Positions 481-23,538 of a DNA stretch of 49,223 nucleotides are shown here, one piece after another (position 1 is the stretch's first letter; each line of letters opens with the position of its first letter). A program made the position numbers and the translations under genes. The notes under the pieces are model-generated. The model made no database searches. It was not told the DNA's origin and worked only from the letters and a program-made list of their open reading frames with translations. Origin of the DNA: Clostridiales bacterium (GTDB lineage Bacteria > Bacillota > Clostridia > UBA1381); contig JAQXZB010000008.1 in assembly GCA_029226975.1 (NCBI GenBank), forward strand, positions 1-49,223. Reading direction: 5' to 3'.

Positions 481-508
481 CGGTTTGACCAATTTGGCGG
501 CGGTCTGA
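481..508 (+). repeat. 28-bp interspersed element, copy 1
   Basis: It starts CGGTTTGACCAATTTG and ends CGGTCTGA. It matches the element at 23484-23511 at 25 of 28 positions. Both copies are intergenic, in the same orientation, and touch the first base of the upstream arm of a rho-independent terminator. Each unit has GGTYTGA at both ends. Function unknown. Confidence 0.65.
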
Positions 509-545
509 GGAGCGGGACGATTTTATTCGTTCCGCTCCTTTTGGG
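508..545 (+). terminator. rho-independent terminator
   Basis: A 13-bp stem (508-520 with 527-539, one G-U pair) with a TTTTAT loop is followed by TTTT. It ends the truncated upstream gene. It lies only a few bases from the 3' end of the convergent CpXC gene, so it may serve both. Confidence 0.85.
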
Positions 546-1797: not shown

Positions 1798-3915
1798 ATG
1801 AAGGTAATCAAAAAAGACGGAACCAAGGAAATTTTTAACGTTCAGAAGGTTGTAACCGCGGTAAACAAATCGGCATTTCGCGTATTGGTAAAATTTACGG
1901 ATGAGGATATAGACTTTATCTGCCGCTTTGTCGAGGAAGAAGCGAAGAAGATGGGCAAGGAGGAAATACGCATTGCCGAAATGCACAACATTGTTGAGGG
2001 TGCATTGGAGAGAGTAAATCCCAAGGTTGCAAAAAGCTACAGGGATTACAGAAATTACAAGCAGGATTTTGTGGCAATGCTTGACGAGGTGTACAGAAAG
2101 AGCCAGTCCATTATGTATATAGGCGACAAGGAAAACTCGAATACCGACTCCGCTCTTGTTTCCACAAAGAGAAGTCTTATCTTTAATCAGCTTAACAAGG
2201 AGCTTTATAAGAAGTTCTTTTTAACCACCGAGGAGCTTCAGGCTTGCCGCGACGGGTATATTTATATCCATGATATGTCCGCAAGAAGAGATACGATGAA
2301 CTGTTGTCTTTTTGACGTTCAGAATGTTTTGTCGGGCGGCTTTGAAATGGGAAATTTGTGGTATAACGAGCCTAAGTCCCTTGACGTTGCCTTTGACGTT
2401 ATAGGAGATATTGTGCTTTCGGCGGCATCGCAGCAGTACGGCGGCTTTACAGTTCCGTCGGCAGACTTGATTTTGGAGCCGTATGCCGAGAAATCCTATG
2501 AGAAGTATACGGAAAAGTACATGGAGCTGGGACTTGACGAGGGCAAGGCGCGAAAGGTTGCGCTTGCGGACGTTCAGAGGGATTTTGACCAGGGCTTCCA
2601 GGGCTGGGAGTATAAGTTTAACTCCGTTTCCTCATCAAGGGGCGATTATCCCTTTATCACCGTAACCATAGGTACGGGAACGGGACGTTTTGCAAAGATG
2701 GCATCAAAATCAATGCTCAAGGTAAGAATGAACGGACAGGGCAAGCCGGGCTTTAAAAAGCCGGTGCTTTTCCCGAAAATCGTATTCCTCTATGACGAGA
2801 ATCTTCATGGCGAGGGCAAGGAACTGGAGGACGTGTTCGAGGCGGGTATAGAATGTTCGTCAAAGACAATGTATCCCGACTGGCTAAGCCTTACCGGCGA
2901 GGGATATGTTCCCTCAATGTATAAAAAATACGGAAGAATTGTTTCGCCCATGGGCTGCCGCGCATTCCTTTCACCCTGGTATGAAAGAGGCGGCATGGAG
3001 CCGGCGGACGAGAACGATAAGCCGGTATTTGTGGGAAGATGGAACATCGGTGCGGTATCGCTGCATCTGCCGATGATTTTGGCAAAGTCAAGACAGGAGG
3101 GCGTAGATTTTTACGAGCTTTTGGATTATTATTTAAACCTTATAAGAAATCTGCATCTTAGGACCTATGATTATTTGGGTGAGATGAGAGCCTCCACTAA
3201 CCCGCTTGCTTACTGTGAGGGCGGCTTCTACGGCGGAAATTTGGGACTGCACGATAAGATTAAGCCTATAATGAAAACTGCAACGGCTTCCTTTGGAATT
3301 ACGGCTTTAAACGAGCTTCAGCAGCTTTATAACAAGAAATCAATCGCCGAGGACGGTCAGTTTGCCCTTGAGGTGCTTCAGCATATAAACGATAAGGTAA
3401 ACGAGTTTAAAAAAGAGGACGGCAAGCTTTACGCCATCTACGGAACTCCGGCAGAGTCCTTGTGCGGACTGCAGATAACGCAGTTTAGAAAGAAGTACGG
3501 CGTTATTGAAAATGTTTCGGACAGAGAGTATGTTTCAAACAGCTTCCACTGCCATGTAACCGAGGATATTACGCCCATAGAGAAGCAAAACTTGGAGGGA
3601 CGCTTCTGGAATCTTTCAAACGGCGGAAAGATACAGTATGTAAAATATCCCATAAGCTACAACAAGGAAGCGATAAGAACGCTTGTAAGACGCGCAATGC
3701 AAAAGGGCTTTTACGAGGGCGTGAATTTGTCATTGGCTTACTGCGACGACTGCGGACACGAGGAGCTTGAAATGGACGTATGTCCCAAGTGCGGTTCCAG
3801 AAACCTTACAAAGATTGACAGAATGAACGGGTATTTGTCATATTCGAGAGTTAAGGGAGATACAAGATTAAACGCCGCTAAAATGGCTGAGATTGCGGAA
3901 AGGAAAAGTATGTAA
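1798..3915 (+). CDS. nrdD: anaerobic ribonucleoside-triphosphate reductase (class III), catalytic subunit
   Basis: Reduces ribonucleoside triphosphates to deoxy forms without oxygen, using a glycyl radical. The 705-residue length fits NrdD. An N-terminal ATP-cone (about residues 1-90, the dATP/ATP allosteric site) is followed by the large catalytic barrel. Near the C-terminus a four-cysteine zinc site (CDDC and CPKC) precedes the glycyl-radical loop RMNGYLSYSR, with the radical Gly at about residue 678. The start ATG follows GGGGGAAAGG. nrdG begins 3 nt after the stop, so the two are one operon under the NrdR-type promoter upstream. Confidence 0.97.
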   Translation: MKVIKKDGTKEIFNVQKVVTAVNKSAFRVLVKFTDEDIDFICRFVEEEAKKMGKEEIRIAEMHNIVEGALERVNPKVAKSYRDYRNYKQDFVAMLDEVYRKSQSIMYIGDKENSNTDSALVSTKRSLIFNQLNKELYKKFFLTTEELQACRDGYIYIHDMSARRDTMNCCLFDVQNVLSGGFEMGNLWYNEPKSLDVAFDVIGDIVLSAASQQYGGFTVPSADLILEPYAEKSYEKYTEKYMELGLDEGKARKVALADVQRDFDQGFQGWEYKFNSVSSSRGDYPFITVTIGTGTGRFAKMASKSMLKVRMNGQGKPGFKKPVLFPKIVFLYDENLHGEGKELEDVFEAGIECSSKTMYPDWLSLTGEGYVPSMYKKYGRIVSPMGCRAFLSPWYERGGMEPADENDKPVFVGRWNIGAVSLHLPMILAKSRQEGVDFYELLDYYLNLIRNLHLRTYDYLGEMRASTNPLAYCEGGFYGGNLGLHDKIKPIMKTATASFGITALNELQQLYNKKSIAEDGQFALEVLQHINDKVNEFKKEDGKLYAIYGTPAESLCGLQITQFRKKYGVIENVSDREYVSNSFHCHVTEDITPIEKQNLEGRFWNLSNGGKIQYVKYPISYNKEAIRTLVRRAMQKGFYEGVNLSLAYCDDCGHEELEMDVCPKCGSRNLTKIDRMNGYLSYSRVKGDTRLNAAKMAEIAERKSM

Positions 3916-22088: not shown

Positions 22089-22124
22089 AAAAACCCAAGG
22101 GTGGGAACACTGCCTTGGGTTTTT
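22089..22124 (+). terminator. terminator between paralogue B and hydF
   Basis: A perfect 12-bp stem AAAAACCCAAGG/CCTTGGGTTTTT with a 12-nt loop. The hydF start lies 22 nt beyond. Confidence 0.92.
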
Positions 22125-22145
22125 GTGTTTGGGAGGAACAGGAAA

Positions 22146-23363
22146 ATGGAAAAAACACCACTTGCATTCCGCACTCATGTATCCATATTCGGAAACACGA
22201 ATGCGGGAAAATCCACGCTTTTTAACGCGCTGATAGGTCAGGATATGATGATTGTATCTAAGGAGCGGGGAACAACTACCGACCCGGTAACAAAGGCGAT
22301 GGAGCTTTTGCCCTACGGACCGATTGCTCTTACCGATACCGCCGGTTTATCGGATAAGAGCAGTATGGGCGAAAAAAGAATTGAAAAGACCGAAAAAGTT
22401 CTGGATAAAACGGATTTTGCCATATATGCCGCCGCCTGTGACGAGTTTGACGATAAAGCCTATAATGATATGTGCCGGGAGTTTGAAAAAAGGCGCATAC
22501 CGCATCTGCTGGTGTTTACCAAGTCGGATTTGGCAGGGAATGAAGCAAAGAGGGCGGACGCGGTTTATGTAAGCGACAGGGATAAGGATAGTATAGAAAA
22601 GCTCAAGGGAGTTATGATTGAGCGGCTCTCAAAAATCAATCCCGATGATCCTACCATGATAGGAGATTTGCTCCCGGGAGGGTCAACGGTTGTAATGGTT
22701 GTACCCATAGACTCCGAGGCACCCAAGGGCAGGATTATACTTCCACAGGTGCAGTTTTTAAGGGACTGCCTTGACCACGGCATAAAGGCGGTTGTGGTGC
22801 GCGATACGGAGCTTGAGGAAACCCTTAGGGAGCTTAACCGCATCGACCTTGTGGTTACGGACTCTCAGGCGTTTAAATTTGTAAGCTCGGTTGTGCCTCA
22901 AAATATACCACTTACCTCATTTTCCATGATGATGGCAAAAATGAAAGGGGATTTAAACGCGTTTATAAAGGGCGCGGAGAATATTGAAAGGTTAAAGGAC
23001 GGCAGCCGTATCCTTATGGCGGAGGCGTGTACCCATAACGTTTCCCATGACGATATAGGAAAAGTAAAAATCCCTCGGCTTTTAAGGCAGTACACCGGCA
23101 AAAGCTTGGAGTTTGATTACTATGTACATCAGGATTTTCCGAAGAATTTGGAGGATTATGACCTTGTTATACACTGCGGCGGCTGCATGATAAATTCGCG
23201 CTCAATGATAAACAGAATACGCTTCTGTGAGGAGAAAAACATCCCGATTACCAACTACGGAGTGGTGCTTGCTTATGTAAACGGTATATTGGAGCGGAGC
23301 AAAAGTATCTTTGCCGGCAGACTGCGAGAAATTGAGTCAGATTTTGCGAAAATGAACTCGTAG
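22146..23363 (+). CDS. hydF: [FeFe]-hydrogenase maturation GTPase HydF
   Basis: HydF is the scaffold on which HydE and HydG build the 2Fe subcluster that is passed to the hydrogenase. The 405-residue chain has an N-terminal GTPase domain with P-loop GNTNAGKST (residues 16-24) and DTAGL, a dimerisation domain, and a C-terminal Fe-S domain with CTH (about 294-296) and HCGGC (about 343-347), matching the family CxH...HCxxC motif. I take ATG 22146, after GGGAGGAACAGG, as the start; an in-frame ATG at 22101 lies inside the terminator. hydE, hydG and hydA are not in the window. Confidence 0.95.
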   Translation: MEKTPLAFRTHVSIFGNTNAGKSTLFNALIGQDMMIVSKERGTTTDPVTKAMELLPYGPIALTDTAGLSDKSSMGEKRIEKTEKVLDKTDFAIYAAACDEFDDKAYNDMCREFEKRRIPHLLVFTKSDLAGNEAKRADAVYVSDRDKDSIEKLKGVMIERLSKINPDDPTMIGDLLPGGSTVVMVVPIDSEAPKGRIILPQVQFLRDCLDHGIKAVVVRDTELEETLRELNRIDLVVTDSQAFKFVSSVVPQNIPLTSFSMMMAKMKGDLNAFIKGAENIERLKDGSRILMAEACTHNVSHDDIGKVKIPRLLRQYTGKSLEFDYYVHQDFPKNLEDYDLVIHCGGCMINSRSMINRIRFCEEKNIPITNYGVVLAYVNGILERSKSIFAGRLREIESDFAKMNS

Positions 23364-23405
23364 GCGTACGAGGGTACGGTAGAGTTTATTTTCACAAAAA
23401 GTGCA

Positions 23406-23440
23406 TACCAAAGGCGTTCCTCGATGGAATGCCTTTGGTA
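23406..23440 (+). terminator. long hairpin after hydF, weak tail
   Basis: A 15-bp stem TACCAAAGGCGTTCC with GGAATGCCTTTGGTA and loop TCGAT. Only ATATTA follows, so it may protect the mRNA 3' end or act as a weak terminator; a second hairpin comes at 23512. Confidence 0.5.
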
Positions 23441-23483
23441 ATATTAGGAGATTATGTTTTTGTTTTTGATTTAAAATCCCGCA

Positions 23484-23511
23484 CGGTCTGACCAATTTGT
23501 CGACGGTCTGA
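23484..23511 (+). repeat. 28-bp interspersed element, copy 2
   Basis: It starts CGGTCTGACCAATTTG and ends CGGTCTGA. 25 of 28 positions match copy 1 at 481-508. It too abuts the left arm of a terminator, in the same orientation. Confidence 0.65.
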
Positions 23512-23538
23512 AAAAAATCCTCTTTATGAGGATTTTTT
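23512..23538 (+). terminator. terminator before comM
   Basis: Perfect 11-bp stem AAAAAATCCTC/GAGGATTTTTT with a 5-nt loop. It joins directly to repeat copy 2. Both arms carry A/T runs, so it could work on either strand. Confidence 0.85.

Follow-up and report, generated by a model that had tools for sequence, protein, structure and literature searches.

Why should nearly the same 28 bp stand immediately upstream of two unlike terminators in distant parts of one contig? The window in which this question arises (the whole stretch of DNA analyzed, 49,223 nucleotides from a Clostridiales bacterium) is contig C8 of a 2.8 Mb, 123-contig assembly, G000, which we call the own genome. An initial annotation had reported that positions 481-508 match 23484-23511 at 25 of 28 bases in the same orientation, and that each copy ends where the left arm of a rho-independent terminator begins, the two terminators being unlike. 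All of this was borne out: pairwise comparison gave three mismatches on the same strand, none of 100 shuffles yielded the match, and the two adjoining hairpins with T runs (Table 1) are present and differ from each other. We conclude that very probably a non-autonomous (MITE-type) element with IS1182-type ends has the 28-mer as its right terminal inverted repeat, lands on terminator hairpins and duplicates them; an IS1182-type transposase would move it in trans.

Table 1. Features of the window, and palindromes duplicated beside plasmid-borne IS1182 copies
Feature	Location	Strand	Length	Basis
Solitary right terminal repeat (28-mer), remnant of element	481-508	+		CGGTTTGACCAATTTGGCGGCGGTCTGA; 25/28 identical to 23484-23511
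Terminator: hairpin 509-538, then TTTT	509-542	+		Read in the sequence; best stem 12 pairs (locus L003)
hydF-like ORF; last 14 codons and stop read from element	22101-23363	+		ORF; homologues in G007 and G005 end earlier
Short-form element copy, without outer hairpin H0	23318-23511	+	194 bp	Ends, fold, alignment to other copies
Inner left terminal repeat, predicted partner of 28-mer	23318-23341	+		CAGACTGCGAGAAATTGAGTCAGA; sequence, fold
Core hairpin H1 (model R1)	23337-23406	+		76.5 bits, E 2.9e-16; family covariation
Second hairpin H2	23408-23438	+		CCAAAGGCGTTCCTCGATGGAATGCCTTTGG; sequence, fold
Right terminal repeat (28-mer) of short-form copy	23484-23511	+		CGGTCTGACCAATTTGTCGACGGTCTGA
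Terminator hairpin and T run, adjoining right end	23512-23538	+		Best stem 11 pairs (locus L004)
Palindrome duplicated by IS1182	Plasmid, Cetobacterium somerae		22 bp	
Palindrome duplicated by IS1182	Plasmid, Sutcliffiella horikoshii		30 bp	
Palindrome duplicated by IS1182	Plasmid, Macrococcoides canis		22 bp	
Palindrome duplicated by IS1182	Plasmid, Salinivibrio kushneri		20 bp	
Palindrome duplicated by IS1182	Plasmid, Rhizobium leguminosarum		23 bp	
Palindrome duplicated by IS1182	Plasmid, Staphylococcus agnetis		22 bp	

The sequence is far from confined to the two copies first noticed: a whole-genome search allowing up to three mismatches found 28 places, and the reversed pattern found none. 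When we read the stretches upstream, 27 of the 28 places carried further element sequence, and the 28-mer is therefore only the right end of something larger; the sole exception is 481-508, upstream of which there is no recognisable element part. The initial annotation had thought of a mobile mini-repeat that targets terminators. Mobility and targeting both stand, but the mobile unit is a non-coding element of about 190-225 bp (194 bp for the window copy, 224-225 bp for full long forms) rather than the 28 bp themselves, and the hairpin beside the 28-mer is its insertion target, duplicated in complete insertions. Read from the left, the long forms consist of the outer hairpin H0 (CAGCGTGTAGACAAACTTGTCTACACGCTG), the inner left repeat (CAGACTGCGAGAAATTGAGTCAGA), the core hairpin H1 and a further hairpin, H2, after which an AT-rich spacer leads to the 28-mer. 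H0 is the terminal repeat in palindromic form, so that several occurrences of the end sequence lie at the left end. Folding predictions pair the inner left repeat with the 28-mer and thereby close a multi-branched structure; for 18 representatives taken from other genomes they give broadly the same architecture.

A search with the core model (R1) found 26 core hairpins in the own genome; in the window the model rises above chance level only at the H1 site. By script classification, nine of the 28 right ends belong to long forms with H0 and seven to forms that start at the inner repeat (five of them clean short forms, the left sides of L025 and L028 being altered); the remaining 12 are cut by a contig end or have no left end, among them L003 (the 28-mer only) and the left-truncated L006 and L017. 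Small size, the absence of a transposase gene and the number of copies (28 right ends) are those of an IS1182 MITE. Contigs C2, C6, C47, C51, C54, C56, C75, C93, C99, C101 and C116 of G000 end within element copies, and the element therefore causes breaks in the assembly. Possible joins are suggested by the likeness of the hairpins at C75 and C93, at C47 and C99, and at C116 and C54.

The window copy has invaded the end of a coding frame. It starts at 23318, within a reading frame that we take to be a hydF-like gene, whose predicted protein ends in ...SIFAGRLREIESDFAKMNS, compared with ...SKEIFE and ...GKIFKTQ in the homologues of genomes G007 and G005 (74% and 71% identical, respectively). 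These homologues end before the element stretch, so the element supplies the final 14 codons together with the stop. We rejected the homologous loci as empty sites, because their intergenic parts are too unlike and G007 carries another element there.

Placement with respect to terminators was assessed with a simple stem test (a stem of at least eight pairs starting no more than 3 nt from the right end). By this measure 23 of the 28 right ends adjoin a hairpin, whereas at the same loci only 8-11% of control positions do (322 of 4000 taken at random, 160 of 1455 after stop codons). The two refuting conditions named in the initial annotation, a total of only two copies and placement independent of terminators, therefore both fail. 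We then compared the flank left of the left end with the flank right of the right end, using an ungapped score with a threshold of at least 12, in elements from metagenome-assembled genomes (MAGs) of Clostridia. Among the matches listed there were 107 distinct core-motif places, of which 74 had both ends recognisable and were scored, the other 33 apex places, with no recognisable end, being left unscored. The two flanks match at or above the threshold in 67 of the 74 (for one scored element, L082 on the minus strand, the script misplaced the left end), whereas none of 5402 mismatched pairings (the left flank of one element with the right flank of another) reached 12, the maximum being 11, seen twice. 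What is duplicated is the whole terminator palindrome, in direct copies of 12-41 nt (median 25, over the 68 elements scoring at least 11). Of these 68, 39 lie between convergent ORF ends; a gene end within 200 nt is found upstream only for 14 and downstream only for 13, and on neither side for two.

Within the own genome the duplication is clear in four of the nine long forms (L009, L015, L020 and L021; scores 21-30). Two more, L011 (score 12) and L019 (score 10, loop inverted), do not exceed what cross-copy pairings give there (maximum 12); long forms L008, L010 and L027 have no hairpin duplication, and the seven forms that start at the inner repeat, the window copy included, have no left hairpin copy. 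At L019 (G000:C36:66637-66896) the loops of the left and right hairpins are mutually reverse-complementary, as if one hairpin had been flipped.

The two hairpin copies also differ in how they have diverged (3 of the 68 pairs were dropped by a hairpin or identity filter). One-sided differences are mostly A.C rather than G.U in the left copy (14 versus 7) and G.U rather than A.C in the right copy (10 versus 4; left versus right, Fisher p = 0.04), which fits a right copy that works on plus-strand RNA and a left copy that works on minus-strand RNA, although the counts are small.

Which transposase family these ends belong to is indicated by their sequence. The element end CAGCGTGTAGACAAA resembles CAGCTTGTAGACAAA of the IS1182-type locus L177, and the right end, when complemented (CAGACCGTCGACAAA), resembles CAGACCGTAGACAAA of L222; ends of the pattern CAG..TGT.GA.AAA occur in L177, L182, L188, L222, L224, L225, L226 and L227. 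In its terminal inverted repeats the MITE thus resembles autonomous IS1182 elements. The IS1182-family transposase model NF033551 was found in 23 of 81 genomes, and nine loci with element-like ends (L177, L179, L182, L184, L187, L188, L196, L204 and L208) have a hairpin at each readable end. At L177, L182, L188 and L215/L221 the left and right hairpins are unlike, which could be the outcome of intramolecular transposition to a second terminator; for the unlike hairpins beside these four IS copies and beside some MITEs, recombination between copies, adjacent deletion or mis-assembly may perhaps also account.

When plasmids were searched by tblastn with the L177 transposase as query, 328 records were returned, and six of the nine plasmid IS1182 copies that we read have an identical palindrome on both sides (Table 1). 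As for the other three, the palindromes of the Thermocaproicibacter melissae copy differ between its two sides, the Peribacillus muralis copy has a right hairpin but its left end is degenerate, and at the copy of ISEfa7 in Enterococcus there is no clear hairpin. For two of the six, related plasmids supply the empty site. Three Rhizobium plasmids lack the IS, and in each the flank matches overlap by exactly 23 bp, which is the palindrome (L271-L273); in the Salinivibrio plasmid L274 the overlap is exactly 20 bp, and in a second plasmid, L275, the right flank is absent. These filled and empty sites are direct evidence that insertion of IS1182 elements duplicates the whole stem-loop. The target duplication of the MITE is thus like that of autonomous elements, and the pattern is not the stem-loop replacement of IS1272, because a hairpin stands on both sides in those 67 MITEs, with which the empty and filled IS sites agree. 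Empty sites were found for the IS but not for the MITE itself.

Terminal repeats and target duplication together bear on other kinds of mobile element. Group IIC introns target terminators, and a retroelement or a relative of these introns would account for a fixed right end combined with a variable left end, as 5' truncation gives and as L003, L006 and L017 have it. Inverted terminal repeats of IS1182 type and a duplicated hairpin speak against such an origin, as does the lack of any Rfam group II intron match over the loci scanned, and we give it almost no weight. The long palindromic target duplications likewise favor a DDE element over REP elements mobilized by RAYT, a Y1 (HUH) transposase.

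As for the source of the transposase, the own genome yielded none whose ends match. All that was found there is a C-terminal piece of an IS1182 transposase with other ends (G000:C96:41421-41741, locus L176), at a contig end, its GGGGCTGTTAAAAAAG end following a gene that is presumably galT-like. We rejected IS1182 elements with other ends as partners, namely this fragment, L178 and L183. Three IS1182-family loci (L183, L186 and L194) have CAGACTGTCGAA ends preceded by ACGT or CCGT and no hairpin; the L183 sites resemble a 4-bp CCGT repeat, which may be the target repeat. Over the 81 genomes, presence of the element is not associated with that of the NF033551 transposase (six genomes shared, 4.8 expected), and PF13751 is present in only five of the 18 element-bearing genomes and absent from 13. 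Both observations would be natural if a different transposase with similar ends moved the element, the likeness of ends and target to IS1182 being convergent. We consider this very unlikely, given how closely the ends agree and that the same hairpin duplication occurs at IS1182 copies of several phyla; multi-copy IS, moreover, are probably often lost from MAG assemblies. The counter-observations do not overturn the evidence for hairpin duplication, which stands.

Taken in the order in which insertion would proceed, an IS1182-type DDE transposase would act on the MITE in trans at a terminator palindrome that is probably extruded as a cruciform, and would link each end of the element to one of the palindrome's two 5' feet. 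Gap repair would then copy the whole hairpin, the duplication itself being what we observe at filled sites. As the positions of the T and A runs suggest, each strand would retain a terminator beyond the far side of the element, so that insertion would be mild and the element would end up inside 3' untranslated RNA. Short forms may arise when the inner repeat is used as an end, or by later deletion.

The element is patchily distributed. A 260-base element query matched 17 of 81 genomes and 12 of 34 genera, the own genome counted, and was absent from two other genomes of the same genus. Named MAGs of Clostridia and Oscillospiraceae contain the core motif in at least 105 stretches, viral contigs in none, and the exact 28-mer has no match in the genome-contig and viral-contig collections. 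With the core model, 31 of 391 sampled genomes of the class were positive; in the phylum sample it was one of 398, the own genome only.

The internal core hairpin carries a signature of its own. Over 42 core sequences, 15 of the 16 long-stem pairs change on both sides (220 cells in total), and the covariation score of 0.627 compares with 0.187 (sd 0.014) for shuffled alignments and at most 0.179 when the pairing is slid; the internal loop and apex are almost invariant. On the plus strand, G.U pairs outnumber A.C mismatches by 92 to 8 over 75 distinct stems and by 23.7 to 2.6 when weighted over 18 clusters. A DNA palindrome would treat G.U and A.C alike, and the excess of G.U therefore points to plus-strand RNA, with the reservation that related sequences are not independent. 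Covariation and G.U tolerance thus support the view that the core hairpin is maintained as plus-strand RNA, and the initial annotation's alternative, an RNA element acting with termination or 3'-end processing, may be right in part: RNA-type constraint does act on the core, and a role in termination or 3'-end processing is a candidate only.

It could be argued from the same covariation and G.U excess, and from the position of the core hairpin beside terminators, that the whole is a non-mobile RNA element of 3' untranslated regions, spread by recombination and descent. This is very unlikely in view of the direct duplication of the target hairpin in relatives, the inverted terminal repeats held in common with IS1182 elements, the patchy distribution and the invasion of a coding-frame end at 23318. 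The core hairpin of the MITE matches no Rfam family: over the element, Rfam 15 gave no match at gathering score (ARRPOF reached 21.6 bits, with 127.2 required), and a known Rfam RNA was rejected as explanation both there and over the tRNA-like repeat described next. On ten IS1182 loci the best R1 scores were at chance level.

Core hairpins or likenesses of them were also seen in other settings. In MAG SIG520 (L074, L079, L106, L113 and L118) the core hairpin lies inside a different repeat, which starts with GGGGGTAGCTCAGTTAGATGCAG and closes with GCCCCA; the start resembles the 5' half of a tRNA, with no tRNA called by ARAGORN and no acceptable Rfam match. A second kind of element occurs at L094 (about 3300-3500, nested within an element of the first type), L090, L217 (after the hydF homologue), L022 and L023; its ends resemble AGGAGCCGTAGCAAAA or AAGGGACTGTCGC, and its apex, GGCGTAC..GGTACG, is similar. 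The likeness of this second type to the core model is weak and a lead only, with scores of 16.4 bits (E 0.34) and 15.3 bits (E 0.66). We raise, as a tentative idea that we think will more probably fail than hold, that the core hairpin represents a functional RNA of a new class, adopted by several unrelated mobile elements (the CAG-ended MITE, the SIG520 tRNA-like repeat and possibly, on weak evidence, a GGGGCTGT-ended element). It would act on transcripts that read through the element as far as the displaced terminator, for instance by shielding the message or by keeping RNA polymerase going across the element.

Hairpin targeting by the IS1182 family was known before, but with loss of the hairpin. 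In the accessible text of the two reports, IS1272 and TnSha1/TnSha2 of Staphylococcus are DDE elements of this family that target hairpins, confirmed terminators included, without sequence preference (PMC4923244, PMC5678879). Furi et al. describe a terminator hairpin partly lost on insertion (PMC4923244), and Wan et al. have IS1272 replacing the stem-loop, with duplication drawn merely as a possible pathway b (PMC5678879). As far as these accounts go, the stem-loop is lost partly or wholly with no target duplication, whereas the present element duplicates the whole hairpin. On hairpin duplication by IS1182 elements and on related motifs, the literature within our search, which mostly excluded subscription journals, holds nothing past the pathway b proposal. 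ISfinder or TnPedia may already record palindromic direct repeats for the IS1182 family.

Other short repeats are comparable in part. The ISMac2 (IS1182)-related MITEs of Methanosarcina acetivorans are non-coding, 160 and 169 bp long, with inverted repeats of 26 and 25 bp; their direct repeats are 4 and 0 bp, as against palindromes of 12-41 bp here, and the accessible part of that paper does not mention a covarying core, which the present MITE has (PMC3852290). The plasmid IS1182 elements of Cetobacterium, Sutcliffiella, Macrococcoides, Salinivibrio, Rhizobium and Staphylococcus agnetis resemble the MITE in ends, hairpin target and duplication, but these autonomous elements encode a transposase and lack the core RNA (all six are among the ten loci scored with R1). 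BOX, RUP and SPRITE of pneumococci are short interspersed non-coding repeats, SPRITE being terminator-like and near gene 3' ends, according to the part of the source available (PMC3049150); as described there SPRITE is itself terminator-like, whereas the present element uses and duplicates terminators that already exist.

The filled and empty sites of two plasmid groups, together with the 67 MITE sites, point to hairpin duplication as the regular outcome of insertion in a large group of elements. Terminators are a safe landing place for mobile DNA, because they are common, lie outside genes and leave each of two converging genes with one. The element explains contig breaks in MAGs that carry copies of it, and its analysis has brought to light a conserved, covarying RNA fold for which there is no Rfam family. 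If the core is indeed a new class of RNA acting on read-through transcripts, it would make insertion into a terminator nearly harmless.
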